Assembly: GCF_022376445.1 (NCBI RefSeq)
Contig: NW_025955018.1
Coordinates: 62,001 to 126,000, forward strand
Direction of reading: 5' to 3'
Source of the DNA: Fomitopsis serialis
Lineage: Eukaryota > Basidiomycota > Agaricomycetes > Polyporales > Fomitopsidaceae
DNA length: 64,000 nt
Positions 5,520 through 48,020 of the stretch are shown here, piece after piece. The position numbers were made by a program, and so were the translations under genes. Each line of letters starts with the position of its first letter. Position 1 is the stretch's first letter. Under the pieces are notes generated by a model, which was not told where the DNA came from, did no database searches, and saw nothing but the letters and a program-made list of their open reading frames with translations.

Positions 5520-5857
5520 TATCGCGTATACGACGTGATGGAACGGCGGCGAGTATCGACTCGGCGCGACGCAGGTGCTTGAGGGTCGGGGCGCAGACCG
5601 GAGAGCTCGGGAGGAAAACTCTAAGGTAAGCATTGGCTTTGTCTATCTACTTATACACGTACAGGTACTGATCTGATACGACGGCGTCGGACGGCGCACG
5701 TCGCACACGGTAGCCTCGAGGCTACCGTCTAAGGCGGGCGATGTACAGCCGGCGATAAGCGCCGGCGCGAGCATACGACGAGGACCGCATATCGGCCTCG
5801 AGTCTAAGGTGAGTTCTGTTAGTACAATTCTATCTACACGGATCTAACATTCCGACA
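5520..5857 (-). repeat. 5' LTR of the copia element
   Basis: Matches 426-763 over 338 bp. It is followed by the second ACTTG target duplication at 5858-5862. Confidence 0.95.
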
Positions 5858-12720: not shown

Positions 12721-15193
12721 AAACACCCAGAACGTCTCATGCCAAAGACGCAGCACGTCATCCGAATGGTACAGACGTAGGTGACGGCAACGAGGCCTCG
12801 TCACCTCCGGTACGGAGCACGGGTGTCGGTCGTCTGGCTCTCTTTTATCTATTGACCGACTTAGTGGAAGGACGGGTTTCTTGGCTTTGGTATGGAATTG
12901 ACTCGAATTCAGTACGGTAACTGGTCTGCATTGACTTGCGCGTCCTGCGATGACTGAGACGTGCTGCGCTTGGACGATGACTGAATGTACTACTACATCG
13001 ACGACCTGGGCTCGAGGGTATCTATATGCGACTGTAAAGGACTTCTCAGATCTATCGCTACGATCAGACGAATTGTATCCTGTTTCGGATCGTTATGTCC
13101 ATGTTCAAAACGTCCGCGCAGGTCCCCGACAGTAGAGATGTCGAACTGGTCCAAAAATGTTCCATATTCGTAACAGTACGCGGACGGCCAGAGGGTTCAG
13201 AAGACCTAGCGTGAGCGACGCCTGACGCGTGGCTGAGACCGAGCTACCATGGACGCAGATCGTCGACGCGCTCGTGCTGATAGACATGACGAGGGCCTTG
13301 CTAGGGTCAATACGAGAGGCGCGTTTGTGAGAGCGGCGAGAAGCTTGATTAGCAGCCTGTTGCCGAAGATGATATGGAGCCCAATTCTGTTGCGAGACGA
13401 GGGAGAACTATGAGAACTGGTCCGTCTGAAGAGGACGCTCACAAAGTCACAAACCGCAAGGAGACGTCTCATATGGAAAACCCTACGGAGAAGAAGTGAG
13501 ACAGTCAATATATATGTCGCATGTCACGTCGATCATCTCACCGCTGACGGATCTAGGGGCACCACCGGGCGAACGCGACCCGGACGTCTCGAGAGTCAAC
13601 CAGCTGGGCTCAACAAGCTTGAGCGCGCGTGGATAAGGTCCTGGAAGTCGAGAACGTGACGCCTGTATCGCCTTGACGCACTACAACTTTATGGGCTGCG
13701 AAATACGGGCTCATTTTGGGCGAGCGAGTGTCCCTGCAATATGACGAGATCAAGGACATGCTAGAACGGAGGCTCCTCGATGAAGTTGCATTTGCGAGGA
13801 ATTTCGTACACAAGAATGAAGCGTCGAGAGGAATCGATCCCTGTCGGAAAGGTAACGCGGAGTAGCCACCTCATCCAGTGCACATCAAGTGATGTTGTCA
13901 GTGTTATGACGCGTGAAAGCTCGAGAGCAGTCGTGGGAGGTGTAGACGCACCTGCTGATGTTCATCCGCTGGACCCAGTAGGCATCTCGTACATATACGA
14001 CGCCGTCTGGAACTCACGACGTCGCAGATTGGAGGCCCGTATGGAAAGGGATACAGGTTTGCTGCGTCATTGTCGACCTTGCTCCTGAGAGAATGCGGAC
14101 AGTGGTACACTGTCTTGAGATGCGGTGCATTATGTTCGTGCCGGCAAGACTAGTTTGATGTGGGACTCGGGAGCCTCGGTACTGAAAGATCAGGTCTACG
14201 AAGATCGAGACGGGCATACTAGCATGGGAATCAGTGAGGTGTAAAGCAAACAAGTCGTCCTCACCTGGCAAACAAGAGAAATTCCATAGGAGTACTACGT
14301 GGCTTGTGAGTCGTCGGATTCACTAGTCTTCACCGCCGCGAGTCAACTGGCACGGTAGATGACGAGCCTCCCTGCAAGGGTGGAGGTTGAATAGCAGTAG
14401 GTCGGCCGCAACTGTCATTTCAGTTCCCCGTAACGATGACTGCAATGGAGATCAGTAGGTCGTGCGCATACTGGATCTCATTGCCGTAAGGATGGGTCGG
14501 CCAGCTGCCTCGGCGGTAGTGATATGTATAACCGAGAAGTCGGAAGACGCGACAGACATACTCACCTTGCCTTGGGCGAGACCACGATGTCATTCACGCC
14601 CCAGAAACGTCCACGGAGGTGCAGGCTAGACCATACGCTATGATGTTGGCACACTCGAGTGCGAACAGTCGACAGTTGGAGCGATACCCCCAGTAACGGT
14701 CGCGCACAGTTTACCGACGTCGACACAGGAAGACAAGAGAAGCGTGCTCTGCCATATGTACTTCAGAGCTTATAGTACCATATGAGATGGGGACAGCGCT
14801 CACCGTGCTCAAGCGTCCACTGCGATGCGTTCGGCGACGAACTATGCTCTGAAAAGGGTTCTGATGCACTACTGGACGATGAGCATGTCCACCGAGAAGC
14901 AGAGGTTACTTAACTGACAGACACTCATCCTTCCGCTGTCTTCGTCTCGTTCAAGCTTATACGACGAGCGACTCGTCAATGGTACCGCGTCTTCAAGCTT
15001 CAAGTCTCGTCACGGAACAGACAGAACTGTCGAGTATGTATGCTTCTCCCATGTGATAATTTAGGATGCGCGCAACACAACAGTACGCACTAGAGCAGGA
15101 CTCGAAGAGACCCACTTGGTCGTTTGGCGGAGGGTGCACGGTTGCGGAGGATGCGCGGCCCGACTCGGAGCCGAGTTACGCGGACGTGCATGC
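12721..15193. other. Downstream flank of F-box unit B, left part
   Basis: No gene recognised. The stretch is collinear with 37114-39391 behind copy C: GGCTCTCTTTTATCTATTGA, TTGACTCGAATTCAGTA, TCACCTTGCCTTG and GTTGCGGAGGATGC occur in the same order in both. It ends GCGGACGTGCATGC, where the 14.9-kb element starts. Confidence 0.7.
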
Positions 15194-15214
15194 TGTCGCA
15201 ACTTTCTTTCGGGG
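15194..15214 (+). repeat. Left terminal inverted repeat of the 14.9-kb element
   Basis: TGTCGCAACTTTCTTTCGGGG, matching 20 of 21 bases with the reverse complement of 30044-30064. Confidence 0.8.
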
Positions 15215-15567
15215 ATACCAATCCCCGAGTATTGGAATGCGCATTCCTATTCTGGTAGAATGATAAGATTACATTACATTGCCGAAAAATGGTCTGCGGC
15301 TCTTTGCAATGGCAGCTCGACGATTGGAAGATCGGCGGTGCATTCGGATGCATCTCGGATCCCCAGCGGAGATTGGTATGCGATTGCAGTCACCGTCTAC
15401 GAGATACCAAAGGGAGAACAACGATTCGATAACGATAACAATCGCCGATTGCCATCGCATTGCGCCGGAGGTACTTCAGCGATCGTCCTCGCATCGCCGC
15501 ATCGCCTCTCCCTGCTTTGTCCCTCCGTCCCGTCTCGCCATCTCACCGTCGCCTCGTCTCCTTGAAC
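15215..15567. other. Left subterminal region and transposase promoter
   Basis: Repeats of related motifs occur here: ATTGGAATGCGCATTCC, GATTGGTATGCGATTGC, GATTGCCATCGCATTGCGC. CACTA-type transposases bind such subterminal repeats. The transposase ATG follows at 15568. Confidence 0.55.
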
Positions 15568-18500
15568 ATGTCTGTCCCTCCGGACACACGGAAGATATGT
15601 CCTCTGTGCTCAGGAGGCTATAGTGCTCGAGGCTTCCCAGCGCACTACCGAAAATGCGAGAGGGTGCATGCGAACAAAATCCGCGACGAAGAACTAATGG
15701 AAGATTTGAATAGGGCACATAATCAAGGTGTGTGTAGTACTCTTATCTTGGGATGAAATCTATTGAGAGAAATTGAACATGTAGCCCAACAAATGCAAAT
15801 GAGGAATGTTGAGCAGGCAGTTGCAGAGGCCCGAGGTATATATCAGCCTGATCATTCAGGTAATAGTACATTTATAATCCTTGTATCTGTTCTAGTATGC
15901 TCAACTATAATTTGCATTTTGCTCATCATAGGCATTCCTATGGAGGGCCCTAGCTATGTCCCAGAAGATGGACTAGACCCTCAGCTTGGTGAGTACAAAA
16001 CACTGTGGCAGTCAGTATTTTGACATGGTTGTAACTTACTTTCATGTCAGGACAGTATACAGGGACTGACAATAGGGACATGTTTTTGCAGGAGAATGAA
16101 GCCCCATGTATGGCTTTATAATGTTGTATTGTCAATTGTAACCACTCAGCACACACAATAGGTCCCTATAAAGTGGGTGATATCAAGACTGTGTACCATC
16201 CCAGACTAGGGAAGGAACCCTTGATTCAGTCCTTGCAAGAGTACAATACTGGAGAGACAAACTTGAGGACAGCACCCCTAAGCACAGACAAGCCTTGGAG
16301 GCCATATGTCACCCGTTGTGACTTTGAGTTTTCAGAACTTGCACTTAGTGCATGTCTCAACAAGGAGCACATTGAGGCTTTCATAAAGCTTATCCAGACC
16401 ATTGCCTCTGGTCAAGATAAATTCACAATATCCAGTAACTCAGAGCTTGTTGAGCTTAGAAAATCAGCTTCAGTCCTGTTGACCCCTGTGTGTGATCATA
16501 GTACTTGTATCTGAGACCAATTAGATGACTGACATATGATTCTACAGTTCCAAGAAATGAAAGTCACAGTTGACTACAATGGAGAACCCCATGATTATCC
16601 TATCTGGGGTCGTGATCTTTGGGATTGGGTCATGGATCAACTCAGAGATACCAGGTTGACTCCTCACTGGGTCTGGGACACTGTGAGGCTTTTCAGGTGG
16701 AATGGGGTTGGATGGATGCGCTTTAGACATGAACCATGGACAGCTGATTTGCTTTGGGATGTTCAGGTTTGTAAAAGAAATTCTACAAAGTAGTTCAAAT
16801 TAAGCTGAGACTTTTACACAGACAGAATTGCCAGAAGGTGGAACACCTCTTGGGCTCATTGTCTATGCAGACAAGACAAAGCTTTCCAGTTTTGGATCAG
16901 AGAAGGGATACCCAGTCATTGCACGTTGTGCTCAGCTTCCTGTGGAAATTCGCAATAGTGATGGGATAGGTGGTGGTGCAATTGTTGGATGGCTTCCAGT
17001 GGTAAGTCTCTTAATGCCATGCCATATGGAAACTTTAATTACTGTGTATTTTCAAGGTTGAGGAAGGTGCTGCTGAAGATGGCAAAAGAGACTATGTGGA
17101 CCACAAGAGGATTGTCTGGCATGAGGCTTTCTATAAACTGTGCAAGAAGATGGATCCTCTCTCCAAAACTGGGTTCCAATGTGACCTTCCTAACCTCAAG
17201 AAATTGTTCTTTCCATTTGTTGCAATGTTGGTTGCTGACTATGAAGAACAGTATGTCTTTCAATCTCAATAAAATCATCTAACTGATTCAGTGATAGATG
17301 TGTCATGGCAATGATCCGTGGAGGTCACCATAGTCTCTGCAATTGCCCCAAATGCCTTGCTGAGTCTAAGAATCTCTCCCTACTTGAGATTTGTGCACCA
17401 TTGCGAACTGCAGCTAGAAGTCAGGAAGTTGTGGGGCTAGCTAAGAACAGGAACAAGACAGAGGGAGAGGAGCTACTCAAAAAGTTTGGTCTGAGAGGAT
17501 TAGCAGTGGGTTATTTTGTGCTATTGCCAAAGATCTCAGCTCATGCATTGATAGAATGTTTTCTGGAAGATTGGCTACAGTGATCCTCATAAAGCCCTAT
17601 CTTTTGACAAGCTACATGCATATGCTATTGGCTTATTTGGGGATCATCTCTGGCCAGAGATCATCAAGCTGGTCAAGCTTCTGGGTCGTCTAGCAATGGG
17701 GATGGTAGACAAGCAGTGAGTCTTTATGTTACTTGAATACATATATATATATATATCTCACATTGCTCTGGTAGAGCTGATGAATTCCCTCGGTGGAGAG
17801 GTCTTGCCCATTTCAAGCAAGTTGTTGCAATCAACTTCAATGATGGATCCAAGTTTGAGGATCTGTCCAAGGTATATGAATATTGACTATGTATATGCTG
17901 TGTCTTATCATTGTACTGCAGATCACACCATACATTGTGCACAATGTCATTGCTCAGATCCATGGCAGTGAAGGCTACCTCTTGCTATGCCTGCTCCGCA
18001 AGTACCTGGAGCTAGACATGTACTGTTCATTTGCAGTGCAAACAGATCAGAATATTGCTGCAATAAGGGCTAAGCTGCTTGAATTTTCTCAATCCCTGAA
18101 GGTCAGCACAGTCCAAGTTGCTCATGTTATCTCAGACAATTAATGACACATTCACTATAGGAGTATCAGTCCAAGACTGGCCCAACTGGGAAAAATTGGA
18201 ACTTTCCAAAGGCACACAGTCATCAGCATGTCCCAGAGGATATAGAAGCAAAGGGGGCCACTCGCAATTTCAACACAAAGCCAGATGAAAAGATGCATGG
18301 CTCTGTCAAGAAGACATATCTCCGACGCTCAAACAAGCGGGATGTAGCATCACAGGTGAGAATCTAATATACTACAACAGTTACATGTCTGTGAATATTG
18401 AGGACCAATTCTTGTTGCAGATCCTGACAGCAGACCATGATACAGCTGTCGCACGCATAATCCGTGCCAATATTGAAGATTATGATGAGCTCAACAACCT

Positions 18501-19264
18501 TGATGGCTCAGAGGAAGATGCAGATGAAGATGACATAGATCAAGATTCTGGACCCACACCACCTCAGGTCCAGAAATCCAAAGCAAAGTCAAACCTTGCT
18601 TTTGGTGATAATCTCATATTGGGAGCACCTCAGAAGCCTACCACCATTGCAGATTTCACAGCATCCAATGAGATTTACAAGGATTTGCTTGCTGACCTTG
18701 CTGCTCTACTCAAGTATATGGATTACAAGACTCCTGAGGGTAATGACATTCAAGTCACTCCTCAGGATGAGGTTTGTACTCCAGCATAAGTTATCATAGG
18801 TCATTGTGCTCATTAGCATATTTCAGGTTATTGAATATCGATTCCTCAAAGTGCACTATCAATCCCTCGAAACATGGAAACAGAGCACTGATTACTTGCG
18901 GTGCAATCCAAATTTCTATGGACAAGAGCGCCGTGATCATGTCCTCATGGATGTCGAAGACGGAGAGCTTTTTGGACGTCTTCTCTTCGCATTCACATTC
19001 TCTGTGAATGGGACAAGGCACCCTTTTGTCATCCTCAAACCACTAGATGGAGAGATTACAGTAAATGACCGGGACAAGGACCTTGGGTTCTATCGGCTCC
19101 GCTCAGGAGAGCACGATGCAGAGTTATTTCCCGCTGAACATCTTGTACGAGGTGCATTGATTACATCGGACCCCGGGAATCACCAGGAATTCTTTGTCGT
19201 AGATCACGACCCCGATATGTTTTGTCGTCTCAATGCTCTGCGTAGTTCGCGTTTCGGGGTGTAG
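15568..19264 (+). CDS. Plavaka-type transposase, 14 exons, intact
   Basis: Deduced exons: 15568-15727, 15770-15859, 15932-15988, 16162-16487, 16548-16766, 16822-17001, 17057-17250, 17298-17505, 17555-17715, 17775-17871, 17922-18101, 18161-18355, 18421-18771, 18827-19264. All phases join, with GT-AG ends, to give 951 aa and no lesion. The N-terminus has a C2HC-like zinc finger (CPLCSGGYSARGFPAHYRKC). Plavaka-family landmarks follow: IWGRDLWDWV, YADKTKLSSFGSEKGYPV (the DKT region), VGWLPV, VADYEEQ, CVMAMIRGGHH with CNCPKC, FPRWRGLAHFKQV, YLELDMYCSFAVQTD and NWNFPKAHSHQH. Introns are AT-rich and short. It should cut and move the surrounding element. The family name rests on my recall of related agaricomycete proteins; KDZ relatives are the main alternative. 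Confidence 0.88.
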
Positions 19265-20022
19265 TACTTAGATCTGTGGGAGACTCAATCATTATCAATG
19301 TGCCTTGAGATTGTGATACTATTGCACTGACTCGTATGACTCGGAGCTCGTAGAATACAATCACTTGTGCATATGATCTTTGAGTCGATCTACGTGCGCG
19401 CATTCCCTCGCGGAACATCTGAATGCACGCCGGGTTGGTGGAATCGCAGGGCGACGAACCGAGGTGCGACGTACCCTGTCTCAGTCCCCTCAGACCAATC
19501 ATCGAAAATGTCAGATTTGGGCTGCGCCGTTACCAGACGTGGTAGATCGTATGGGTAAGTCGAGTGGCTTGCACGGGATCGAATGGAGAGGCGGTTACCA
19601 ACCGATACGCCCGTATCACCAGCGGGAGACATACCAGATCTCTGGTGATGTGATGCTCAGCACGCAGCGATTCATCCACGCAGAGGAACCTACCTCCATC
19701 ACGTCACAGCCCAGCAAGTGGGCGGGGTCTTCAAGCGAGACGGGGCATACTTTGTAAGCAGTGTGATAGCCGGCATCCAGCTGTGCCCATGCCAGTGGTA
19801 TACATCGCGGGCGAACGCTAAGCATAGACCGCGGGATGGTGCGCTGCGAACCAACTTGCGGCCCGATTCTGGATCAACTGCCTGGCACCGAACTTGGACT
19901 GGGTCCGGGCAGATGAGGGAGGTCATGTCGACGTGCCGGTCGACTCGCTACTGACGGCGGCGGTGGGTGTGGCTGGGATAGGTCCGAATGAAGCAGACTG
20001 TAAACTGAGTGCCGACTAGATA
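19265..20022. other. No gene seen, start of the internal cargo segment
   Basis: Base composition becomes GC-rich again after the AT-rich transposase gene. Open frames here (for example 19718-19954) do not resemble any protein I know and have no clear splice structure. Confidence 0.4.
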
Positions 20023-20425
20023 TCAATGCAGAGGGGTCGTTTGTCGAGGTAGTGTACCGATCTTGAACTCGAATGCTCGCTCTTTGCCTTCGTCGTGATC
20101 ATCTTCTCCACCTGGCGCATCTCCGAGCCCGCCAATACTGACTCGCTCGACTTGAAGAGGCCCATGCTCGCCGTGACCACTTGTACGGTCGAGCCGGCTG
20201 GAAGGTCGGTACGGGTGGGAGCGAGCCGGGACTGTGATCATGATGGGGAGACGGGTGAAACGAAACGGCTTATTATCAGAAAACTACACGTTGTGTAGTA
20301 CTTGTGTACTGACCGTTCTCGTCACCTCTAGGCTTACCCTAGATACGACCTCATCGACGGACTCGGACTCCGGGAAGTGGGAGATCGTGTCGGCAACTCT
20401 GTCCAAGTCTCACAAGCCCCTGCCT
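20023..20425 (-). pseudogene. Possible 3' exons of an unrecognised host gene
   Basis: On the minus strand one block reads LDRVADTISHFPESESVDEV (about 20425-20341) and ends at a GTAAGC donor. A second block (about 20241-20023) reads RVSIGGLGDAPGGEDDHDEG and KERAFEFKIGTLPRQTTPLH followed by a stop. Both look like real acidic fungal coding sequence, not antisense noise, but no start or upstream exons are visible. It would be convergent or overlapping with nothing else, and lies divergent to the FHA relic. The family is not recognised. It may be the tail of a neighbour dragged along with the captured segment. Confidence 0.35.
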
Positions 20426-20938
20426 TCGTCAACAATGACACCGCGTGAGAGTATACATACACACCCCTTTGTCGGTCTCCCAGTTCTCTGCGGACCCAGC
20501 AACTCATGGTCACCGGTCGGACCACGACCAGTTGTGTCGCAGTTCATGTCGTGCGGGAAATCCCGCGATGCACCAGTTGACAGTACCAGCCTGGAGGAAA
20601 TGTAGAGAGAGATGTATAGAGAGAGATGGGGTCGACTAGGTTGCTCGTGAAGGTGGGGATGCAGGTGCGAGACGTCGTTCGCAGGGTTCGACCAAGGCGG
20701 GTCGACCAGCACCGATCGATCATTGGTGAGTGTGATCGGTGGGCTGAGGAGAATGGCGCCCGTCTCCCACTCCCATCCCACTCCCATCCCACTCCCAGTC
20801 TACTCCCGTTAATATCCTCCTTTACGCCCGCTGCTCCCTCTCCGTCTCGTCACCGTGCGTTTTCCTCCAAGTCCTGGCAAGGCCCGTCGATCGTGTCCCG
20901 GATTAAGCCCTCCTACCCGTCTTTGGATCACAGCAATA

Positions 20939-23033
20939 TGGCGGAGACATCCGCAGTCTTCCGTCTGCAGGTGAGCGAGACCCACCAGTGGCGACTACTA
21001 CACGCGAACGCACGGTTGCTTTGGCCCTTTCGGGAGGCCGAGTGATTAGCTGCCCGTTTGTAGAAGATCGTCTCTGCTGGTATGCACGCTCGACTGCAGC
21101 GCGGCTGCGGATGTCTCCCTTCGCCCACGCATCCTTTCGCGTAGTCACCTGCCCGCCCGCCCATTCATTGGCTCTAGCACGACACCCATACCATCCGCCA
21201 GCCCGCCCCATGTCGTGCCCGTTACACTCCCTGCACTCTATCTCTACCCGCTCAACGCCTCATGTGTCCCAAAACACGCTCGTCAACAACCTGCGCGTCA
21301 AGATCGGTCGCCAGACGAACGCGAAGACCGTCACCGCCGAACGCAACGGATCCTTCGACTTGTACGTGCCGATTGGTAGGAGCATGCTGGGGTTCGGGAG
21401 GAGGGCGGAAAGGTACGTCGCAAGGCAGGCGGCGCGCCGGGAATAATATAATCTCACTCATTGCATCACATTCCCGGACGCGTGTAGATTTACATCAAGG
21501 ACGTCAAGAGTTCTAATGGAACGTTCATCGACGGCGACAGGCTGAGTCCTGAAGGGCTCGAGTCTGAGCCGTTCAAGCTCAAGTCCGAAGACATCGTCGT
21601 ACGTCCCTCACCCGTCGATAGCCAGTGTCCCTCATGTTGAGACAGGCATATTGCACGTCAGGAATTCGGTATCGACATCGTCGGCGAGGACAACAAGACC
21701 ATCATACACCAGAAAGTCGCAGCGCGCGTTCTCTGCGCACTCAACGACCTAGATGCACAAGCCGCCGCACGGGCAGAGGCGCAACAGAACCCACCCAGCT
21801 ACGGCACTGTCGCGGGGAAGGCACCCGCCGGAAGTGGCTTCAACTTTTCAAGCCAGCATCAACCCTCTGCGAACGGCGTACCGGGACACCAGTGCCGCCC
21901 TTCCATGCCGCAAGGCTTGGTCGATATGGGTGGCATGGGCGGAAACGTGCGCCCGCCAGGCAAGAGTGGCCTCACTTTCGACCATATCCTGACCTGGATC
22001 CAAGGCGAGCTGCAGTGAGATGCATGATACGCTCGGGGGCAATCTGGTGCGTCCTCTTTGGAGCCAACTTTGAGGACGACGACTGAAGTAGCCGTGATCA
22101 GCCACCTAATCTCCCTCCTTACCCCTCAGTCCTTCCCCCGAGCCAGTTCCACGAGACCCAAACGTCGCTCGCTACTCACGTCGAGAAGATCCGGACGCCA
22201 GAAGACAAGCTTTCACAGCAAGCTTTCACAGCAAGACACTATCAAGTGCGAAGTGAGCACGATGCGCGAGCTCATGGAAGAACGTCAGCGCGAGATGGAG
22301 ATGCCTCGAAGCCTCAGCGTGCGGAACTGGCGCCATAATCAACCGTCCGAAGAACACTACATGTCCGACGATGATGGCGCTCGACGCATCAATATGATCG
22401 TCCTACAGGAGCTGGAGAGGGTGGATGAGGAAGATGAGGAGCAGCCAACTGCGGAAGACGACGTACAGCGGAGGCGACGGAGAGACGAACTCGACCGGGG
22501 ACGCCAGAGCCGACGGATGGGTATGGTCGAGGACGAGGAGCAAGAGCAGCGCGATCGCGCTCGCCGTCGCCGTTGCCACCACCCGCACCAGTGACTGTCG
22601 CCGCACCGCCGCCGCCGCCGCCTCCGACCGCCGCCATCCCCGACGAGCTCATGGAGCGCCTCAACACGCTGTCGAAACAACTCGAGACAGCGCTTGAGTT
22701 CTCGCGCTCGCTCGAGGCGCAACACACTATGGCCCAGTCCACAATCCAAATGCTCGAGTCGAAGGTCACTTCGCTGGAGAGCCTTGTCCACGACACGCAG
22801 TCGCAGGTGCAAACTCAGGCGCAGACTACTGAGCAGCTCGCCGAAGCTGTAAAGGCGGCTGAGACGCCACCCCAGGGACCTCCACTGTCATCTGACGACC
22901 GTGACCGCGAGTCGCTGACGGAGATCGTGAACGAATGGAAGAAGAGCGTCGAAGGGTACTGGACTGGTACGGGAGGAGTGGACGGAGGAGCGGGGGCGGT
23001 TGCGTCGCGTTGAACTTGGTGTTTGCTAGGTTG
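20939..23033 (+). pseudogene. Decayed FHA-domain gene (Vps64/Far10/SLMAP type)
   Basis: Starts MAETSAVFRLQ before a GTGAGC donor. The FHA domain follows (LVNNLRVKIGRQTNAKTVTA, then IYIKDVKSSNGTFIDGDRLS, then FGIDIVGEDNKTI). Later come a Gly-rich linker, an Arg/Glu-rich coiled coil (MRELMEERQREMEM), a Pro run and a second coiled coil (DELMERLNTLSKQLETALEF). Family members are the tail-anchored FHA subunits of the STRIPAK complex (Far10/Vps64, SLMAP). Lesions: a frameshift before LVNNLRVK (about 21283); the phosphopeptide-binding SRQH block replaced by out-of-frame sequence with TAG (about 21385); a frame break after WIQGELQ (about 22015); and another near 22970 that removes the VREEWTEER continuation. 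It is dead, inside the 14.9-kb element. Confidence 0.75.
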
Positions 23034-23127
23034 CCTGTTACCCTGCCTGGCGGCGGCACTCCCGCTCCTATATCACGGCTCAAGATCTTCCGTACCTGCT
23101 CGATCGACCTCGGATTATGCTCTGAAG

Positions 23128-26100
23128 ATGTCTGACTTTTCTAGTATCACGCCCTCAACAGGGCCGCCGCGGTCACCTCTGTTTGGCACCGCGACGTTCT
23201 CAACACCCTCACCAACTCAAACACCCATGTCTCCATCAAAGCTTTCTTCATCCATCCGTTCTGGTGGGTTTCTACCCAATTGATCCTGTTGGTAACTTAA
23301 TGTCTGCGTAGCCACACCAATCGCATCGTCGTACGACAGCGATGACGCCTCGTCAGGCCGACAGATGCGCCGAATCGTTGTATCACCCTCTCCGATATCA
23401 AGAGACTCCGACACCTATGCGTACGAAGAAGACTCAATGAGGGACGCGGCAGAAGTGGAGGCCGAACTTGCTCAAATCAACGACGATATCGACGACTTCC
23501 TCTCCGAAGTTTCGCGAAACTCCTCCAGAGACGCTTCCACCTATACATCCTACACTGGGCCGTCTACATACACGTCTTACACCGGCCCTTCGACGTATAC
23601 TACACGCACGGACAGTGTCTCAAACGCTGGATCTGGGACGTCTGGCAACTTCCGCGCCGCAGCGGGGCCCATGCCTACGACTGAACGCGGACCGCGAGTC
23701 CTCAGCACAATCTCGGAGCACACAGAAAATACACCATCGAGACCCTCTTCGTATCCTTCCGCCGGTGATGCTAACCGGCTCTCAGCCCACATCGAAGGCA
23801 TAGTGTCTCGTTCTCGCTCCGCCACGGAACCGTCTCAAACGACGCAGCCTCCGCGTCCGCTTCCATCAACTCCCGGCCCCAAGGTAGTGGAGCGTATTGC
23901 ATTCTTCGAGGACCGTACAGCGGCATCATCTGGCAGTCCCGGGCCATTCTTCGGACACGCTAGGACGGGCTCGGCGCCGTCTGCCATTCGGTCTCCTAGT
24001 CCTTACACGACGACACAGAGTCGCTCAATGCCGACATTGAGCAGCACAGCTTATGGGTATGGTAGTACAACAGGTTATGGGAGCGCTTCATACGGCTCTC
24101 GGCCTTCGTCGCGCACGGGCTCTGCGGTATCGTACTCGGGCCCCAACACCACGATGTCCTCGATGCTATCGCCGCCACCTCGCGCGCACAGTGCGCTCTC
24201 TTGGGACTCTTTCAATCCCACGAGCACCGAGGCGACGACGCTCACTACCCGCACGCCCGTCTCCGCTACCACTTACACTGCGTCAGGTATGGGAACCGGG
24301 ACATACACCAATCCGAATTCCAATACGTTCTCCAATACACTCTCAAGCTTGGACCCGACGACGACTACCCAGACGACGAGTACGCTTACCCCACGCCAGA
24401 TGACACCGAACGACCGCACAGCGTTGAGCCAAGTGCGCAACGTGATTAGTCGGTGGAAAGGAGCGCACACCCTCGATGTGGAAGTCAGAGCATTCTACGA
24501 CGTCGCCATCGCCTACCCAGAGCGATGGTCTCTTCAGCATCCGGCGCAGGGCCAGCAGGGGCAGTGCGAGACTGAGAGATCGTGCGCTCCAGGCGGCAAA
24601 CAGAAACAGTGGCAGAAGGGCGAGCGACCCCGTCTCGATGGCTGGCCTGGATGAGAGTGGCAGCGGGGATCTTAGTACTAGCGGGCTGCTTCCGCCACCG
24701 TTCGATATCAATGAAATGGGACAGTACGCTGGAGCCACGGAGACTCAAGAGGTAAGCACATTCGTCATATACGAACTATCATCGTGTGCTCATCGTCGGT
24801 ACTTAGCCGCTTCGCATTGGTCTCTTGTGGTACCTCAATGTGCACGCGCCGCCCTATAGATGGCAGCGCTGCCAGGCCCTCCTATACCCGCACATGCTAC
24901 TGCTCTCCTGGATCGCCGCGGGTGGTGGCCGTGGTATCGTTACCTTGGATCTGTTGAACTCTACGGAAGTGCAGTCGGCCAAGTCGCCTACGCATCATGG
25001 TGCGCAGGAGGATGTCGGGACGATGGCCGCGATCATGCAGAGCCAGAACGCGAGTACAGGCGTGGAGACGCAGTTGGGCGAGGCTGAGCTGATGCAGACG
25101 CTTAGCCCGTTCCACTTGCACTACAGTGACGGTATCGAGAGGCTAGGAACGGACAGTCCGAGAGAGCGAGTTCGTTGAGTCAGCGCTATTTGGTACGTCC
25201 TTGCCTTCGACTCAGCAGTTCTTACTTACACCGGGATGCAGGGATGTCCTTGATCGCGCGGTATCCATTCCGGACTGCTCGGTCAGCGGCTCGCCGATTG
25301 GATCGGTTCGTACTATGTATACGTTCACCAGCACAAGCTCCTCGCCCTCAGGGACCGCGTCGGGATCTGCGACGACTCGCTACGTCCCTCACATCGACAC
25401 AATGCCAAACATCTCGGACCTACAATCAATCTCTGGATCCAGCGTTCGTAGTGGTATGTCGCGCAGGCCGTCACTTGCATCCGCCCATCGCACGCGTGCC
25501 ACAAACGACTCAGCCGTTTCGAATCAGGCATTCCTATACCCCGGGGATCCGCGCGTGATTGGCCCAAGCCGAAGCAGCTCCATTCGCCGCACCAGCTCCA
25601 TTCGCCGCACCAGCTCCATTCGCCGCACCAGCTCCTTGACCGACTTCGACGAGGAGTTTGCGTCGGCAGTTCGCGCCCGGGATTGGGCTTTGATCTTGGT
25701 TTAGCAGGGGGTGTGCCCGTGGGCGATGGCTCGCCCATGACAATTTCGAGTGGACAAAGGTTGGGTCGCGACGTGTACATGTCCCGCCAAGTGTAGGGAG
25801 GGGAAGTGAGGGAGCGCGTAGTCGTGCCTCCGACAGCGCGACGTCCATCTCCGACGATGTGTTCTTCTCTGCGACTGGACGATCGCGGACCCCCACGTCC
25901 AGCCTTTACTCGTCTTCGTCGTTCACAAAGGGTCTGACCACGACAGACACCAGGACAGGCACCGGCCTCGGCACTGACGAGACTGTGGTGGACATTGTTT
26001 CTGGGTCGGGCACCAACATCGTCGCGTCGACCTTGTCTCTCAGAGGCACGACGTCCGCATTCATGCTTGGTGACTCGCACAGCGGTTCAAGCGGCCTGCC

Positions 26101-26999
26101 GTCGACGTCACCTTCGCGCGGCGACCTGACTCGGTCGAGGTTTGTTGCGTGTCGAACTCTTAGGAGCAGCTCGCGGTCGTACTCCCCCTACAATCAGAGT
26201 AGCGAAGACACATCTGAAAAGGAGAATTCAGGGAGCTACACCCGACCGCGAGTCGATCGTCCACTGAGCACGCTGGAGACCTACACCAGCTCACACATTC
26301 CAGCGAGGTCTTACGCCCCTACGCCGTCATCTTGGTCTTGCACGCGGTCAACAGATGATTACACTAGATCTTCGGACGAGCCTAGACCGGACAGCGAAGT
26401 GGCGAGATCGATGCAGTCAGCGACGTCTATACCGTCGTCGCCTTCCGAGTCAATAGCACCGACGCCAACGACAATCTCTCTTCCTCCGAGTGCCCCTTCG
26501 CCTACTATTATATACAATACTCCAGTCTCTACTGCATCCTCTATCTCCATTGACTCATGTGTTGGGGCCTCAATCTCTTTTGGAATTCCTACTGTTGATT
26601 GCGCAAGACGATGTATCCACCGAGCTGGGACGACATTCGCGCGCATGCTCTCGCATCTGTCGGCAATCTAGCACATGTTCTGGGCGCGGTATGTGCTTTC
26701 AATTGTGACTCGGTTCGTGCAGCAACACGCCAATCGCGCCCCGAGTCGTGTTAACCACATCTCGGACAACCCACGTAAAGATACGCGCACGTACTGCCAC
26801 GACTACGGTCACCCTTAGTCTGTGCGCTGTTACTGCGATACTTCTTCATGCCTCACCTCTTCTCAGAAGTCTCGTTGCCGCCGCAGGATGGGTTCGCAAT
26901 CGAATTGCTGACTTCCGCCGACATAGCCATGAGTGTTCGGCCTTCCATGCTGATGGTCCAGCATCGCCAAAGTCTTATCAGTGAGAATCTACATGCGTA
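23128..26999 (+). pseudogene. Decayed Ser/Thr-rich protein gene with PH-like segment
   Basis: Begins MSDFSSITPSTGPPRSPLFG, then a long low-complexity Ser/Thr/Tyr region with a tandem TYTSYTGPS repeat. A later exon encodes PLRIGLLWYLNVHAPPYRWQ, then LLSWIAAGGGRGIVTLDLLN, which I read as a PH-like fold with low certainty. Further Ser/Thr-rich exons follow to about 26999. Lesions: one extra base near 24460, so the VISRWK and SEHSTTSPSPTQ frames no longer join; a Trp codon changed to TGA at 25176-25178 (RVR-stop-VSAIW); and further breaks after 25690. Same orientation as the FHA relic 100 bp upstream, so the two probably arrived as one host segment. Confidence 0.6.
25576..25635 (+). repeat. 18-bp tandem repeat, three copies plus a partial
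   Basis: AGCTCCATTCGCCGCACC is repeated three times exactly and then starts a fourth time. It encodes Ser-Ser-Ile-Arg-Arg-Thr repeats in the relic gene. Confidence 0.9.
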
Positions 27000-27124
27000 G
27001 TCGCAACGTCAAACTACATCGATGAATGTGAGTGTGTGCGCACATTTAACACGTCGAGGCTCAACTGACAGCTTGGAGCTCGCCCATCCGCATCACAGGC
27101 CTATTCCGCTTTACGCTGCTAGTT

Positions 27125-29250
27125 ATGCCAGGCCCCCGCCAACCTAACATCCACTCGTCGAGCCGCGTCGATGGCAGCGAAGAGAACTATGATCTCGCCG
27201 TCAGCGGTAGTTCGGACGAGGCACAGTCGGGGACTCAGACTAGGGTGACGAACGCAGCCTCGGGCTCCCTGGCGTCGAACGAGTGGCTAGCAATACCCAT
27301 ACCTGGCCCAGGTGCAACCATTGAACAGTACCGACAGGTAAGTCAGTTGCTTCCGGTGTGACCGAATACTCAGTATACTGTTGCATAGTGTCTCGTGTTA
27401 TACCAGCTGGAAAACACGAACTTGCGAGCTGATCTTCAACGGGTTCAACTCGAGCTCGGGACGCTGAAAGCCGATCTACGCGCCGATGGCCTTCAAAACC
27501 GCCGCAGTTCAAAGGGTAAGGCTGGCATGCCACGCGACGATGACATGGGGACAGCCGCGCGCAAGTACGCTATCCTCGTCTCACCTTGGCTGCAGCCACA
27601 GGCCTTCAGTCTGCCTAGCCGTCCCGACATCGACCCACAGAGCAAGATACGGTATACAAACCCCGGAACGATGCAGGCCGCCGAAGCCGCCGAGGTGTAC
27701 GACATTGTTCCTCAGCGTCTGCATCCTATCCTCGGGAGCAACGATTCTACTTACTCGCAACAAGTAAGTAACCATCCACGCATTGTGTGCTTATCAGTAT
27801 TCACGCCAGCTCAGTTCCGGACAGATGTGCAGCAATCACGATCCAACGCTCTCAACACCGCACTAACCTGTGCAGGTCAGATCTTCAACATGCCGCAGGA
27901 GCGCTTTGCTCGCACTGGGAGCTACGATCGCGCAAAGGATGCTGCGATGCAGCAATTCATCCGCGATGAGAAGGGCCTTTATGGCCTGCTTGTGCCGGTG
28001 CTCTATCCGGAGGACGATATGCGTATCAACAAGGTCTTCCGCAGTATCTACGTCGCGAAAGTGAGTACTTGTAGTAACTCTTCATGTTGTACTTAGAACT
28101 GGACTTACATCGGATTAGATAGCGAAGGTTATCCTCTTCGGACCACAGTCTCTTTCGCGAGAAGGTGGTGCACCATCAGGCAAACCACCGATTGGCAGGG
28201 CGTGGAAAATCAAGGTCCCGACAGATGGCTTGATTGCCTTTGCCTCAGTTGTGGTTCGTTCCCTACTTCTGATGCGCAGTTGTCGATCTGATACCCATCG
28301 GAAGGCACGGTACATTCTATCGCCTGATACCCAATTGTCGAACGAAAGCAAACCTGGTAACAAGACGAAGATCTCCTACTTCGACGATTTCAATAACTAC
28401 AAGCACATGCTGATCTTCATGGAGGAGTCGCGAAAACGCAAGCTTGTCGAGTTCTACCTCGAACATACCTTCGATGTAACTCCGGAGCCGCGAGACACAG
28501 GGTCCGCTACGACGAACCCGATTGGCACGCGTGAAGCAGCCTTTGCCAGTGCATTGCAAGCGGTCAACGAGGCCAGTTTCATAGCTGATTCAGACGATGA
28601 TGCTGAAGGCGCAGACGACGAGGACGAGCCTGATGATCACATTCCCTCCTCTAGCGCGCTGTCCCAGCTTACTTCGATCTCGTCGCACGCCAGCTCTCTG
28701 TCTAACGCCTTCGATGGCCTGGTGATCGGCGAACAGGCTGCTTTTGTTGAGGCTGCACCGGCTGGATCATCAGGACACGTCGCGCTCGCTGGACCATCCT
28801 ACGCTGTCGCACCCACTGGGTTCCCATCATACATCACATCGACTGTACCATTGCACGTCGCCGCATCAGCTGGGCCGACACGCGTCGCATCACCTGGTCC
28901 ACCCGGAGTAGTCGGTGCCATGTCTGGTGTAGCAACACCTCCTGGAGCTGCCCCCATTCCATCGTCCAGTCTGGCACCCGTCGCGTCGCCGACTGCATCT
29001 ACCCCTGTCGTAACCCCTGGGTTGCCCCCATCACTAGGGCGGGAGCTCCGGGACCGGCGCCGGCCCCTGCGCCCAAAAAGATCCGCGCAAAGAAGAACAA
29101 GGGTAAGGAAGTGGATCGTGTCCAGCTTCAGCAGACTACAGATGCCCCTGCGGCTACCAGTACGGTTATGCCCGCTGACTCGGCGGCCGATCATGGTGGT
29201 ACTGCTCCTCGCACTCTGCGAACGCGAGCCGCGGTTGCGCGGAATCGTTG
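27125..29250 (+). CDS. Agaricomycete protein of unknown function (DUF6532-like?)
   Basis: Exons about 27125-27337, 27389-27763, 27815-28060 and from 28119, with a likely further intron 28249-28299. The N-terminus is acidic, then a short coiled coil (LENTNLRADLQRVQLELGTL). The core reads ARKYAILVSPWLQPQAFSLP, LYGLLVPVLYPEDDMRINKV, FRSIYVAK and ILFGPQSL, ending YILSPDTQLS and KISYFDDFNNYKHMLIFMEE. This core resembles a large agaricomycete family of unknown function, possibly DUF6532; the label is tentative. The C-terminal Ala/Pro/Ser tail switches frame near 29020-29045: a basic ending (KKIRAKKNKGKEVD, then RTLRTRAAVARNR) lies in another frame and stops at 29250. So either a small intron or a frameshift is present. 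It lies just inside the right end of the element, opposite the transposase. Confidence 0.65.
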
Positions 29251-30043
29251 ACGTCTACTTGCGGCAAGGGTGTCCAGTTGTCTTTGATGTAGCTTAATTA
29301 GTGCCATTGCTCGCTGACGTCTTGCTGTTCCTCGTCGTGTGCTGTTCCTCATCCGTCGTCGTGCGCTGTACCTGTTAATACTTGATCTGAATAGTATTGT
29401 GGTTAGTTGAGGTTTGTAATGGCTGAAGGACAAAGATGTCGTCATATTCTAGGGACGTTTATACCATCCATGCCCAGTTAGCGTAGCAGTATGCACCCCT
29501 TTACTATGAAACCAAGGTATGAGTTATCTAAGTCGCGCGTTCGAACCCTTTTCTGACCATCTCATTAATAGACGCCCATACAAATGTCAAGTAACCGTCA
29601 GTAAGCGTGTAACACTAAATACTAGTGATGTAATAGTGAGTTCTAGTGATCTGTACTGAGCATAAATACTGATACCGTTAGAACTACAGTAGTAACTTGA
29701 TAGTAGTAACTGACGGGACAGTCACTGCGCGTAGACCGGGACACCGTGAAATAGTATGAAATTTTGTCATTGCCAGTGAACCCTTACATATAGAATTAAG
29801 ACCGATACGTATTCATATGACATTCGCGGCATTGCAATGCATAGGATTGGCTTCAATCCAATGTGTCTTATGTTGATTGGTATGCGATTATAATTGATCG
29901 TCTCGAATTGGGTTATACGTTGCGCAATTATAATTAACAGTCTGAGATTGGAATGCGCATTGGAATGAGTTCGCCTTCATTAACGCGCATTGGATAGCCA
30001 TCAGCGTCTACCGCAATTGGAATCCAATACAATGCTATTCAAA
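29251..30043. other. Right subterminal region of the 14.9-kb element
   Basis: AT-rich and without coding capacity. It holds many variants of one motif on both strands: ATTGGTATGCGATTATAATT, GATTGGAATGCGCATTGGAA, ACGCGCATTGGATAGCC, CAATTGGAATCCAAT. The same motif family occurs in the left subterminal region. Confidence 0.6.
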
Positions 30044-30064
30044 CCCCGTAAGAAAGTTGCGACA
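30044..30064 (-). repeat. Right terminal inverted repeat of the 14.9-kb element
   Basis: Reads TGTCGCAACTTTCTTACGGGG on the minus strand, with one mismatch to 15194-15214. The bases GCATTA follow, then the mariner element. Confidence 0.8.
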
Positions 30065-30070
30065 GCATTA

Positions 30071-30094
30071 AGATATGCCCAGCTCACTTTCGAC
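30071..30094 (+). repeat. Left inverted repeat of the mariner-like element
   Basis: 24 bp identical to the reverse complement of 33160-33183. Confidence 0.92.
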
Positions 30095-30367
30095 TACATC
30101 ACGTGCACAGAAATTGGGCGCTTTACACCGGTTTGGCAGGCAGAAGTACGAGAAATTATGTTACAGATATTCTACGGGACATGGGAGAAAAAGGGAGACT
30201 GTCAATTTGTAGTAATGAGGTATCTCTCAAGGTTGACAGTCGATTTTAACTGCCACGATGTCTGGGAATGAGAGTCAGTGACGAAATGTGCTCGAGAAGG
30301 TTTGATTACCTAATCACTGGGATATTGGGATATTCCCGATTGAGCGACATGGCTGAGCACCTCCCTA

Positions 30368-32970
30368 ATGTCTCCAAGGAACAAGCGAGCTCGCGTCGGC
30401 CTGAAGAATCTCGGTCACTGTGCAGTGAAGAAGGAGGAGAGGGTTGAGGTCTTGGATGTAGAGAAAGAAATTGTGAGTTCATTGTTCATATTGTATCAAC
30501 TCGACGCTGTATACTCACGAGAATGGGCCCGGGATAGGTACCAGTTACACCCATGGATATAGAGAGCCTGCCAGTGACTCTAGAGGAGATACACAACAGG
30601 ATGGAACAAACATTTGTGGAGATCACACAGCCTACCTGGTCGTCCCCATCGAGAAATGAACCCTCCAAGTCGATCCTCGTAAATGACTCACCGAGGACTG
30701 CATCAGAACGCGGAACTGCCTCGCTGCCTACACCCGAGTTGGACGTGCACATGGCAGATAGCAATGAGCTTATCGAGGGCAATTGCTCCAAGTCGCAGGC
30801 CATGCAGTGCGACAGCCCGGCGCCTGTGCAGGACGAGCCACCAGGCGATGTTCCACGCGCTGCGATGAAGCGCGCACTGTTTGAGCCACCGCCATCGATC
30901 GAGGAAGCAAAGTTAGCTCACCGGGACCTGAGTGAACTTCTGCGGCCGAGGCGGAAGAATGGGAATGGATACTTGGCTTTTGCTGGTGGTGACAAGCTCC
31001 AACGGCGAATGGAGCAGATCAAAATGTTCTTGCATTTCTTTGTGAGTGTCGACGAGTCTGGGCGGCACATTGGCTGGGCGGCTGCCTCGCTCAAAACTGC
31101 TCAGGCATGGGAGCAAGGTCCGCACCAGGCGCGGAAGCTTCGAGAATGGACGCGCAACTTCATGGAAGACCATCATTGCTTACCGTTTACGCCCGAGGCA
31201 ACATGGAAGACGTCTCTTTTGGAGAAGCCTGATCTGAAAGAGGCAATCAGCGAGCACCTCCAAAGCATCGGCAAATATGTACGTGCCATGGACATCGTCG
31301 AGTACATGGCAAGGCCAGATGTTCTTGTCACATATGGCCTAACCAAGCCGATAGGCCTCTCGACAGCACAGACGTGGATGCACGCACTCGATTATCGCTG
31401 GACGAAGGATCCATCGGGTCAATACATCGACGGGCACGAGCGCGCAGATGTTGTGGAGTACCGAGATAAGGTGTTCCTGCCCGCAATGGCAAGGTTGGAC
31501 CGATCCACGCGAGACTTCATCGATGGACACACCGTGCAAGGCCCTGTCCTGCCAGATGGGACTTTCCGGCAGGACCCAGGCACATATAATTGCCTTGTTG
31601 ATGGCGTCCCCCTGGAAGGCTTCGAGTCTCAGCTGCCGGATGAGGCCTTCCGGTGCAGTGGGCCCGAGTTTGACGTCCAACTGTCGGATGGGTCAACTCG
31701 CCAGGGTGTTGAGATTGAACTCACAATGCCAGATGGATCGATGCGGCGGGGAATTCGAGTCAATATCCCTGACAGTGGCGCCGAGGCTGCAACTGCAGCC
31801 TCGGGCAGTACTGAGTCAACTCCACGGCGGCCGCGGCGGGTGATCTTCTGGTACCACGACGAGTCGACATTTTACGCCAATGATCGCCGCCACACTCGCT
31901 GGGTCCTCAAATCCGAGCGGGCAACACCACGTGCAAAAGGTGAAGGTGCATCACTCATGGTTGCCGACTTCGTCTCAGCAGACTATGGGTTCTTGCGCTC
32001 GCCCGATGGGAAAGAGTCCGCGCGGGTTCTGTTTCGCGCAGGCAAGAACCGAGATGGATACTTTACCAATCAAGAGATCATTGACCACGCGACACTCGCC
32101 ATGGATATTCTCTCGCGACACTATCCAGATGACGACCATGTGCTCATCTTTGACAATGCACCCACACACCTGAAGCGTGACGACAATGCACTGTCTGCAC
32201 GTCGCATGTCTGCAAAGCCCACTGCGCCCGGTAAGCCCCTCTTCGGCGTCGATGTTGACGCAATCGGCGAAGACGGGCGCCCGATCTATAGGCCCGACGG
32301 CAAGAAGCAAAAGCAGCGCGTACGAATGGGCGATGCTCGCCTCCCCGACGGCCAGCCGCAGTCATTGTATTTCGATGATAACTCGGAGCGGCCAGGTGTT
32401 TTCAAGGGAATGGTGAAGATTCTCGAGGAGCGCGGAATTGATACTTTGGGCAAACGAGCGCAGTGCGCCGACTTCAAGTGTAAGCCACCTGCTCTTGACT
32501 GTTGTGTCCGGCGCATACTGTACAATCAGCCGGACTTCCGTGACATCGAGAGTGTGTTAGAGAAGCAGTGTGGGCAACAGGGCTTTCAAGTCTTGTTCCT
32601 GCCAAAATTCCATTGCGAGCTCAACCCCATCGAGCAATGCTGGGGCTTCGCCAAGAGGGTATACAGGAAGTGTGCACCGTCAAGCCTAGAAGCCGTTCTC
32701 GAAAAGAATATGCTCTCTTCGCTTGACATCATCCCATTGGAGTCAGTTCGAAGGTGAGTCTGCTTTGACTTCGCACGAACTTCGCTTTTTCTGACACATC
32801 ATGCCTGACTATGCAGGTTCTTTATTCGCTCACAGCGTTTCATGGACGCATACCGTCGCGGGCTGTCTGGCAATCAAGCCGCCTGGGCAAGCAAGAAGTA
32901 CCATGGGCATCGGGTGCTTCCGAACAGCATCCTCGATGATCTCGAGAAGGCTGGGATCTCACGGATGTAG
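30368..32970 (+). CDS. Tc1/mariner (IS630-type) DDE transposase
   Basis: Three exons (30368-30472, 30565-32753, 32817-32970) join in phase to 815 aa with no lesion. The N-terminal third carries DNA-binding regions (YLAFAGGDKLQRRMEQI, later WMHALDYRW). The catalytic part has FWYHDESTFYANDRR (first Asp), HVLIFDNAPTHLKRD (second Asp) and FLPKFHCELNPIEQCWGFAK (final Glu), as expected for a DDE enzyme of the IS630/Tc1 group. A Cys-rich block (CADFKCKPPALDCCVRRI) lies before the last motif. The last exon ends HGHRVLPNSILDDLEKAGIS. Several acidic inserts make it longer than a classic mariner transposase. It matches a lineage common in agaricomycetes. With intact ends, the element looks capable of movement. 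Confidence 0.93.
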
Positions 32971-33159
32971 CTTCAGACTCTCAGTGCCTCGTCCCATACT
33001 GTTATTGTGTATATATTAACCTCTCGCACATCTCGCGGTTTCGCAGCCCAACATCGACGACCCCTTATCATACATGTCCTAATCCGTACCCCTAATCCTA
33101 ACTGCGCGCTACTGACTTATCCCTCGTGGCACGTGATGGTTTTCTGACGCCCATAGTCG

Positions 33160-33183
33160 TCGAAAGTGAGCTGGGCATATCTT
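33160..33183 (-). repeat. Right inverted repeat of the mariner-like element
   Basis: Reverse complement of the left end, followed by the TA target duplication. Confidence 0.92.
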
Positions 33184-33185
33184 AG

Positions 33186-46020: not shown

Positions 46021-46286
46021 TACCGTTACCCGCTAGTCCGTGGATGAAGATCCCGCGCCACACGCCTCAGCCACCTCGCGTCTCGCGGCCGTCGCCTTCA
46101 TGCAATGCCCAATACCTCGCTCGAAACTCATCGTATGGCCTCGGCGACCTCATTTTCGGAATCTACGCGTCAAACGCTACTCAGGCATGTTGTCAGAAAG
46201 GCCAAATCGAGAGGCAGCTGCGCGCAAGACCCCACAAGAGTCCGGACGAGTCGGCGAACACCCGCACGCAGCGTAAACGGCGCGTG
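46021..46286 (+). repeat. Left 266-bp arm of the inverted-repeat element
   Basis: GC-rich and open in more than one reading frame (for example from 46040 and 46044), with no recognisable protein. Its perfect partner on the other strand is 47755-48020. Confidence 0.92.
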
Positions 46287-46504
46287 CGTGTCACATATCG
46301 CATGTCGGGAGGCTGGAGGGTGCTATGAGTGGTTGATTGAGCCAGGGTTGAAGCTGTTTGTATAGTGAGTCTTCAATGCTAGTGTTGTTGTTCTTTCGTC
46401 CCTCTGTACTCACGCGAGCAGTCCCGGGCTTATGGGATACTGGTTCGCCACATTACAAGTTACGTCGCACCGTGACACTAAGTATATTCAATCTTCATAT
46501 ATGT

Positions 46505-46567
46505 ACAGTCATCTACCCCCTGGTGAGTCGCTACCCCCCCAGTGGGTCGACTGCCTATCGCGGGTGA
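46505..46567 (+). repeat. Inner 63-bp inverted repeat, left copy
   Basis: Starts ACAGTCATCTACCCCCTGGT and contains a run of seven C. It pairs perfectly with 46998-47060. No target duplication is seen around the pair. Confidence 0.9.
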
Positions 46568-46997
46568 CAAGGATAAATCGGGAATGTAGACGCCCGGGGA
46601 TCGCTTCTTATCTCTCAAGCCCGACGCGATGTTCGCGGCTTACCGTTTGGGGACTATTGAATGTAAACAGACCCGTCTTAATGCATGCATAGTCCGAATA
46701 AATGTCTAGACTGGTACTTCGAATACATGAGCAGCCTTTTGAGACTACAACAGTACAACAAAACCAGAGGTGTCGGACTAGGACTGATTTAATCCTTATA
46801 TGTATATATTGTACCCTACAGCATGCTCATGTACAGTACATTCGTTGTGGTAAATGTACACTAATTGCTCGTTGCCCTGCAAGCCATGCAGATTCTAAGC
46901 CCACTCGGAGGTGACACTCCCGGTAGACTCAGTGCGCGCGACGCGTCCCTCGTTATCTCGGAGTAGATAAGATGTGGATTACCAAATCGGGCTCTTA

Positions 46998-47060
46998 TCA
47001 CCCGCGATAGGCAGTCGACCCACTGGGGGGGTAGCGACTCACCAGGGGGTAGATGACTGT
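46998..47060 (-). repeat. Inner 63-bp inverted repeat, right copy
   Basis: Exact reverse complement of 46505-46567, separated from it by 430 bp of AT-rich DNA without genes. Confidence 0.9.
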
Positions 47061-47351
47061 ATCACTGTCAATATAATATTACTGCTTGTAGGAAGTCCAG
47101 CCGAGCCGATACAGTGGTCTTCATGACTGTTGGGTATAATCTCACACCTAACAATCAAATGGTATTCTACGCTGTATGTAATAGTTCATGAGTGCATCAA
47201 GGGTCTACCATTGCATCAGTACCAAGGCCTGGAGCCAAGATTCACGACCATTGACAATTGCACACGGTACAGTATGTGCACCCGAGTGATGAACTCACTT
47301 GAACGGTCTTGACTCCTGAGCTCGAGTTCTCCGTGTCCGGGACATACTATA

Positions 47352-47685
47352 TGTCGGAATGTTAGATCCGTATAGATAGAGTTGTACTCACAAAACTCAC
47401 CTTAGACTCGAGGCCGATATGCGGTCCTCGTTGTATGCTTGGGCTGTCGCTTATTGCCAGCTGAACATCGCCCGCCTTGGGCCGTAGCCTCAAGACTACC
47501 GTGTGCGACGTGCGCTATCCGACACCGTCATATTTGATCAGTACCAATGTACATGTATAAGTAGACAGACAGAAATACGAACCTCGTAGTTTTTCCCCCG
47601 AGCTCTCCGGTCTGCGCCCCGACCCTCAAGCACCTGCGCGTCGAGTCAATACTCGCCGCTGTTCCATCGCATCGTATACGCGATA
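47352..47685 (+). mobile_element. Solo copia LTR nested in the inverted-repeat element
   Basis: 334 bp, starting TGTCGGAATGTTAGATCCGT and ending CGATA like the LTRs of the 426-5857 element, but with many differences, so it is an older relative. A CTATA target duplication stands on both sides (47347-47351 and 47686-47690). Loss of the interior by recombination between LTRs is the usual origin. Confidence 0.9.
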
Positions 47686-47754
47686 CTATAGTTCAGTCAC
47701 CCTACAGCCTACCCTGTTCTCCTGGCCCACGATGTAAGTATATACTATGGCACT

Positions 47755-48020
47755 CACGCGCCGTTTACGCTGCGTGCGGGTGTTCGCCGACTCGTCCGGA
47801 CTCTTGTGGGGTCTTGCGCGCAGCTGCCTCTCGATTTGGCCTTTCTGACAACATGCCTGAGTAGCGTTTGACGCGTAGATTCCGAAAATGAGGTCGCCGA
47901 GGCCATACGATGAGTTTCGAGCGAGGTATTGGGCATTGCATGAAGGCGACGGCCGCGAGACGCGAGGTGGCTGAGGCGTGTGGCGCGGGATCTTCATCCA
48001 CGGACTAGCGGGTAACGGTA
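47755..48020 (-). repeat. Right 266-bp arm of the inverted-repeat element
   Basis: Perfect reverse complement of 46021-46286; ends at the second GTGCTT. Confidence 0.92.

Follow-up and report, generated by a model that had tools for sequence, protein, structure and literature searches.

A DNA transposon of 14,871 bp fills exactly positions 15194-30064 (plus strand) of the 64,000-nucleotide stretch of DNA analyzed here, from the wood-rotting polypore Fomitopsis serialis (the window; bases 62001-126000 of contig C534). It is very likely a cut-and-paste element of the PlavakaA lineage with a two-gene core, which would consist of the left end, a transposase gene, a DUF6698 gene, and the right end, and with a patchwork of DNA from at least three host loci, on different contigs, built up between the two genes. 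What is new, judging from the sequences, is an apparently autonomous PlavakaA element that carries a multi-locus chimera; its mobility together with the cargo is putative.

The limits of the element are given by its ends, its target site duplication (TSD), and a related empty site. The left terminal inverted repeat (TGTCGCAACTTTCTTTCGGGG; 15194-15214, plus strand) and the right one (TGTCGCAACTTTCTTACGGGG, reversed from 30064; 30044-30064, minus strand) have the form TGTCGC..GCGACA and, read inward, give TGTCGCAACTTTCTT[T/A]CGGGG at each end; direct comparison bore out the 20 matching bases of 21 reported in the first-pass annotation of this DNA. A search for empty sites returned an uninterrupted site on contig C35. 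The left flank of the element has a 93% identical relative there (841 of 878 bases), and the C35 sequence, which includes TGCATGCATTAGCAGCTAGCAAG, runs through as TGCATGCATTAGCAG; the window reads, in order, TGCATGC, the 14,871-bp element, GCATTA, a second transposon, and TAGCAG. By comparison with the uninterrupted C35 site, the duplication made by the element is 2 bp (GC), with copies at 15192-15193 and 30065-30066. Both the C35 site and unit C in the window are without the entire 15194-30064 interval. C35, which may be the allele or a paralogous F-box unit, is called a related uninterrupted site only, because toward the right of the window, at ~38.7-50 kb, the best partner is another contig, C267 (92-99%). 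The F-box flank had been described as continuing on both sides of the element, and GCAGTTAGCAAGTTGTG is indeed where it picks up again, although not until 33185. In between lies the second transposon, a Tc1-like element outside the Plavaka element (30071-33182, plus strand) with a DDE_3 open reading frame (ORF) at 30538-32757, ends AGATATGCCCAGCTCAC, and a TA duplication at 30069-30070 and 33183-33184; only 6 bp separate its end from the Plavaka element.

A 21-base pattern representing the ends (one N, up to 3 mismatches) had 10 matches in the 66.2-Mb, 806-contig genome, and a reversed control pattern at the same threshold had none. Two of the matches are the ends of the 14,871-bp element, and six are the paired ends of three 269-bp elements. 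Another, at C796:323605, is a lone end whose interior also contains a counterpart of the right subterminal stretch of the element (29438-29586, plus strand; 72% identity to C796:323975-324124), and the last, on C348 with 3 mismatches, appears unrelated by eye. The search for other copies thus yielded short relatives and a lone end, but no second full-length copy of the element ends, with or without cargo, was found in this assembly; the genome searches scored the best candidates only, so copy counts are lower bounds. The 269-bp elements (C257:86397-86665, C334:250535-250803, and C804:115931-116199) are non-autonomous relatives with near-identical ends that were possibly moved by the transposase of the 14,871-bp element or by a related one; an exact 2-bp duplication is present in only one of the three. 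The subterminal octamer ATTCCAAT/ATTGGAAT occurs three times in the right 400 bp and once in the left 300 bp, compared to once in the 14.2-kb interior and not at all in the 46 kb outside the element; the evidence for the shared subterminal motifs described earlier for both ends is thin on the left. An ARAGORN scan of the window found no tRNA and gave no support to 29438-29586 as a tRNA-like stretch, which was dropped as a candidate; an Rfam scan gave one match (E 0.99), far under its cut-off.

The transposase gene (15568-19264, plus strand) was called intact in the first-pass annotation, and its frame is indeed open after splicing: 15 exons placed by eye encode 965 amino acids (aa) with no internal stop. 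The deposited model (B0H18DRAFT_1086042; P0001) is spliced differently and encodes 837 aa; the two proteins have 0 mismatched residues and 47 gap positions, which come from the different splicing. One read-through frame of the gene matched PF18759 with a score of 37.1 bits against a cut-off of 26.3. The conserved acidic residues D315, D419, and E681, C439/C442 of the C(2)C motif, and H657/H661 of the H(3)H motif are invariant across 15 aligned proteins, and their spacing suggests that they are the catalytic residues. Among the best 47 of 164 candidates, which were scored, the closest other transposase in the genome reaches 29% identity. In the accessible text of a 2025 survey (PMC12730594), PlavakaA is defined by TGT..ACA ends and a 2-bp TSD, and Plavaka is placed with CACTA/EnSpm relatives, with which it shares C(2)C and H(3-4)H motifs. 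The F. serialis element has 5'-TGT..ACA-3' ends, a 2-bp TSD (GC/GC against the related empty site), and a Plavaka transposase with DDE residues and with C(2)C and H(3-4)H motifs between the second D and the last E, as PlavakaA does in that text. Ends, duplication, and transposase fit PlavakaA, within the CACTA-like clade. The element differs from PlavakaA as described there in that its cargo is a multi-locus host gene chimera; the same text names a TET/JBP gene as Plavaka cargo, in PlavakaB.

The origin of the DNA between the two genes was traced by searching 19250-29700 against the genome and then aligning the matching loci. Three captured pieces were recognized. Piece 1 (20074-20229, minus strand) is ~0.15 kb from the 5' end of a host gene, with a start codon at 20165. 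Its relatives at C87:15391 and C301:243277 are 72 to 73% identical over 112 bases (E values of 1.6e-15 and 3.7e-14), and the piece includes the first codons after the start. The third gene described earlier on the other strand corresponds to this one minus-strand gene start.

Piece 2 (21150-23009, plus strand) is a shortened, 1.86-kb copy of an FHA gene, with 85 to 87% identity to its parents at C792:157888-159867 and C780:3985-5965; the match is firm from 21173 and weaker from about 21150, and about 80 bp of the parent are absent at 22139/22140. The two parental contigs are alike across the FHA region except for 3 of 2699 bases, and the C780 gene matched the FHA domain in Pfam at 27.8 bits (cut-off, 20.7); its product is a putative STRIPAK-type, tail-anchored protein. 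The captured copy keeps an intron, seen by eye in the alignment as a GT..AG stretch separating FHA exons, and because this intron is retained, the capture was of DNA. In one alignment, 9 of 10 indels in the FHA C-terminal frame are not divisible by three, as are 4 of 7 in the first part, introns included. Further partial copies of the FHA gene, with stretches 68 to 95% identical and with varying boundaries, occur on C47, C779, C54, C36, and C94, so that this gene seems to have been duplicated piecemeal and repeatedly; when these fragments were compared with the gene, and the reading frames near four of them listed, nothing linked them to the element.

Piece 3 (23009-26625, plus strand; 3.6 kb) covers the 5' part of a Ser/Thr-rich gene together with sequence upstream of it; the parent lies on the minus strand at C556:165528-160987. 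Identity is 93% over 3.4 kb (23009-26411) and 73% over the last 0.2 kb, and about 0.9 kb of the parent is absent at 26411/26415. No Pfam family matched this gene, and “Ser-rich” is a reading of its translation. In one alignment each, indels not divisible by three make up 2 of 3 in its first exon, 3 of 4 in the next frame, and 9 of 12 over the whole 3.4 kb with non-coding sequence included. The same-orientation FHA and Ser-rich relics described earlier were confirmed via these parents, and their boundary is sharp: the match to C792/C780 ends and the match to C556 begins at one base, 23009, placing the fusion at 23009-23010 with about 1 bp of shared sequence (by eye).

The cargo is therefore best described, from the alignments, as a chimera of three host loci on different contigs and not as one contiguous block. 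The first-pass annotation had pictured a Plavaka-type element with host DNA taken up as DNA and since decayed, and the retained FHA intron and broken copies support this. It had also proposed whole host genes, which is not supported: all three pieces are incomplete. The copies bear frameshifts and deletions. The stretches 19266-20073, 20230-21149, and 26626-27124 had no source in the genome search except for a short repeat, 21004-21067, which recurs at seven other places (86 to 95% identity over about 37 to 64 bp). This repeat is enclosed by a 14-bp inverted pair at 20943 and 21105 (20943-21118) and, with that pair, is perhaps a tiny separate insertion.

The Ser-rich piece has 0.045 substitutions per aligned site over its 3.4 kb (0.020 in the first exon and 0.097 upstream), and the two FHA parts have 0.071 and 0.089. 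Because the coding values are lower and third positions are the most changed, these counts suggest that much of the divergence is older than the capture, with another allele as the source. The unequal divergence of the pieces suggests, in turn, either that capture happened at least twice or that the FHA DNA came from a more distant source. At the junctions, read by eye, about 1 bp is shared at 23009 and at 22139, and 3 bp of filler are present at 26411. Judged by these three breakpoints, capture may have proceeded when breaks within the element underwent error-prone repair, through template switching or end joining; the differing divergence of the pieces makes two or more such events probable. 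The cargo could have been added after insertion at the 15194-30064 site, and because one copy was found, we make no choice between capture before and capture after insertion. The transposase, for its part, would still be able to move the element and its 269-bp non-autonomous relatives.

Other origins of the cargo were weighed against this stepwise patchwork. That a single event took up one contiguous three-gene host segment, as proposed in the first-pass annotation, would be in keeping with the FHA and Ser-rich pieces adjoining in the same orientation, but we consider it very improbable: the pieces match C87/C301, C792/C780, and C556, with two of them fused at 23009, and substitutions differ between the FHA (7-9%) and Ser-rich (4.5%) pieces. 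The intact FHA/Ser-rich gene pair that it would predict was not seen either; the parents lie on separate contigs, and the DNA fetched around each (40 kb of C556, 15 kb of C792, and 10 kb of C780) had no match to the other parent's gene, although C792 ends about 7.5 kb beyond the FHA gene, and the linkage comparison reaches no further on that side. The 66 kb of parental DNA contained no pair of element ends and one 3-mismatch match to the 15-bp end. It is harder still to credit that the host-like block stood at the site beforehand and that the Plavaka ends flank it by coincidence, given that the C35 site and unit C lack the whole interval and that nothing was found in favor of such a history.

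A separate mobile element inserted between the transposase and DUF6698 genes, such as a Helitron carrying gene fragments, is an unlikely source of the cargo, though less so than a single host segment. Helitrons have 5'-TC..CTRR-3' ends with a hairpin. Part of the interval has no assigned source, 21004-21067 recurs at seven places and lies within a 14-bp inverted pair, and capture of gene fragments by Helitrons in fungi is described in the accessible text of PMC4289320. Against this, exact inverted 12-mer pairs joining 19266-21200 with 26400-27200 numbered 0 (0.09 expected), and among the matches listed there was no other copy of 26626-29437 and only two short stretches of 19266-21172. None of the inverted repeats among the pairs listed (25 of 28) lies at the cargo limits. 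The patchwork of separately captured host fragments remains the reading that we favor.

At the right end of the element is a large plus-strand gene that the first-pass annotation had not included (27125-29297; B0H18DRAFT_537372; P0121). Its deposited 653-aa protein contains a DUF6698 domain (31.8 bits; cut-off, 23.7); the unspliced frame of the window reached only 13.2 bits. We consider this gene probably the element's own second gene. That it is instead a fourth captured host gene is a possibility that we rate well below this, though well above a Helitron origin of the cargo. Capture would be in line with at least 18 DUF6698 loci in the genome, none near another Plavaka gene, in a search that also missed the element's own pair. 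No close parent was found, however: a genome protein search with the gene gave 2 matches, both to itself, and a large protein collection had one other relative over threshold (P0122, from F. schrenkii; 35%). The deposited model, moreover, maps to the window with splicing gaps only. In Psilocybe cubensis, two protein clusters fuse Plavaka and then DUF6698, in the same order as in the element, with a partial match to the DUF6698 domain in a third Plavaka protein; the identity between P0121 and P0054 is 26% over 329 columns. These fusions come from one species, may be merged gene models, and were obtained in a search that returned long proteins only.

For the neighborhood comparison, 56 DUF6698 matches were merged by eye into 22 loci, of which the 18 over the cut-off were used (those on C165, C457, C86, and C260 were under it), and 139 Plavaka matches were merged into 122 loci. 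No DUF6698-Plavaka pair was found between the 18 and the 122 loci, the nearest being 50 kb apart; counting the four weaker loci, the nearest Plavaka gene is about 15 kb away, on C260. This negative is weak because both searches missed the element's own genes on C534, as they miss split genes. DUF6698 as a general companion of Plavaka was accordingly set aside, on that weak negative.

DNA transposons that capture genes are described, in the accessible text of the respective papers, from plants (PMC8903248 and PMC13317346), animals (PMC8277862), and fungi (PMC3538342). Like the plant Pack-CACTA and Pack-TYPE elements described there, the F. serialis element has host gene fragments between inverted repeats and belongs to a CACTA-like clade; unlike those non-autonomous plant elements without a transposase, it is fungal and has an open transposase frame, and it is for this reason not filed as Pack-TYPE. 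The model given for plant Pack-CACTA is aberrant excision of neighboring copies (PMC13317346). Single-copy animal Pack-TIRs are attributed mostly to gap filling, with microhomology (median, 2 bp) at one or more breakpoints in 67.6% (PMC8277862, in the portion available); a single copy is common to those cases and ours, whereas the three sources, the Plavaka family, and the fungal host are particular to ours. The hAT element that transduplicated histone H3 in Pyrenophora tritici-repentis (PMC3538342, accessible part) is similar in having a full transposase, a central ORF, and a host-derived gene, but its long form has 10 almost identical copies and keeps the histone ORF, in contrast to the one copy found in F. 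serialis and its decayed fragments. In a literature search that covered few subscription papers, the accessible text of PMC12730594 and PMC9674265 yielded no Plavaka host gene fragments other than TET/JBP genes.

Capture by cut-and-paste transposons has been described, in the accessible literature, mostly in plants and animals, and in plants in non-autonomous elements; here, the gene shuffling known best from plants is seen in a barely studied fungal lineage, in an element that has retained its transposase. With the parents identified, how and in what order the pieces were captured becomes testable in other strains. The findings also suggest a possible role as a transposon accessory protein for DUF6698, whose function is unknown in Pfam. 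More speculatively, and we hold this only as a tentative proposal, PlavakaA elements could be actively shuffling exons in mushroom-forming fungi, as autonomous transposons with two genes that have the DUF6698 protein as a second transposition factor and stitch separate host gene fragments into new chimeras in successive captures.

Other repeats were observed elsewhere in the window. Two direct repeats of 338 bp (426-763 and 5520-5857) are 100% identical and are possibly the long terminal repeats of a young retroelement; at 47352-47686 there is a further copy, inverted and diverged (86%). The region 46021-48020 has inverted 277-bp arms that are 98.9% identical and an inner inverted pair of 68 bp, and parts of it recur elsewhere in the genome at 87 to 99% identity.
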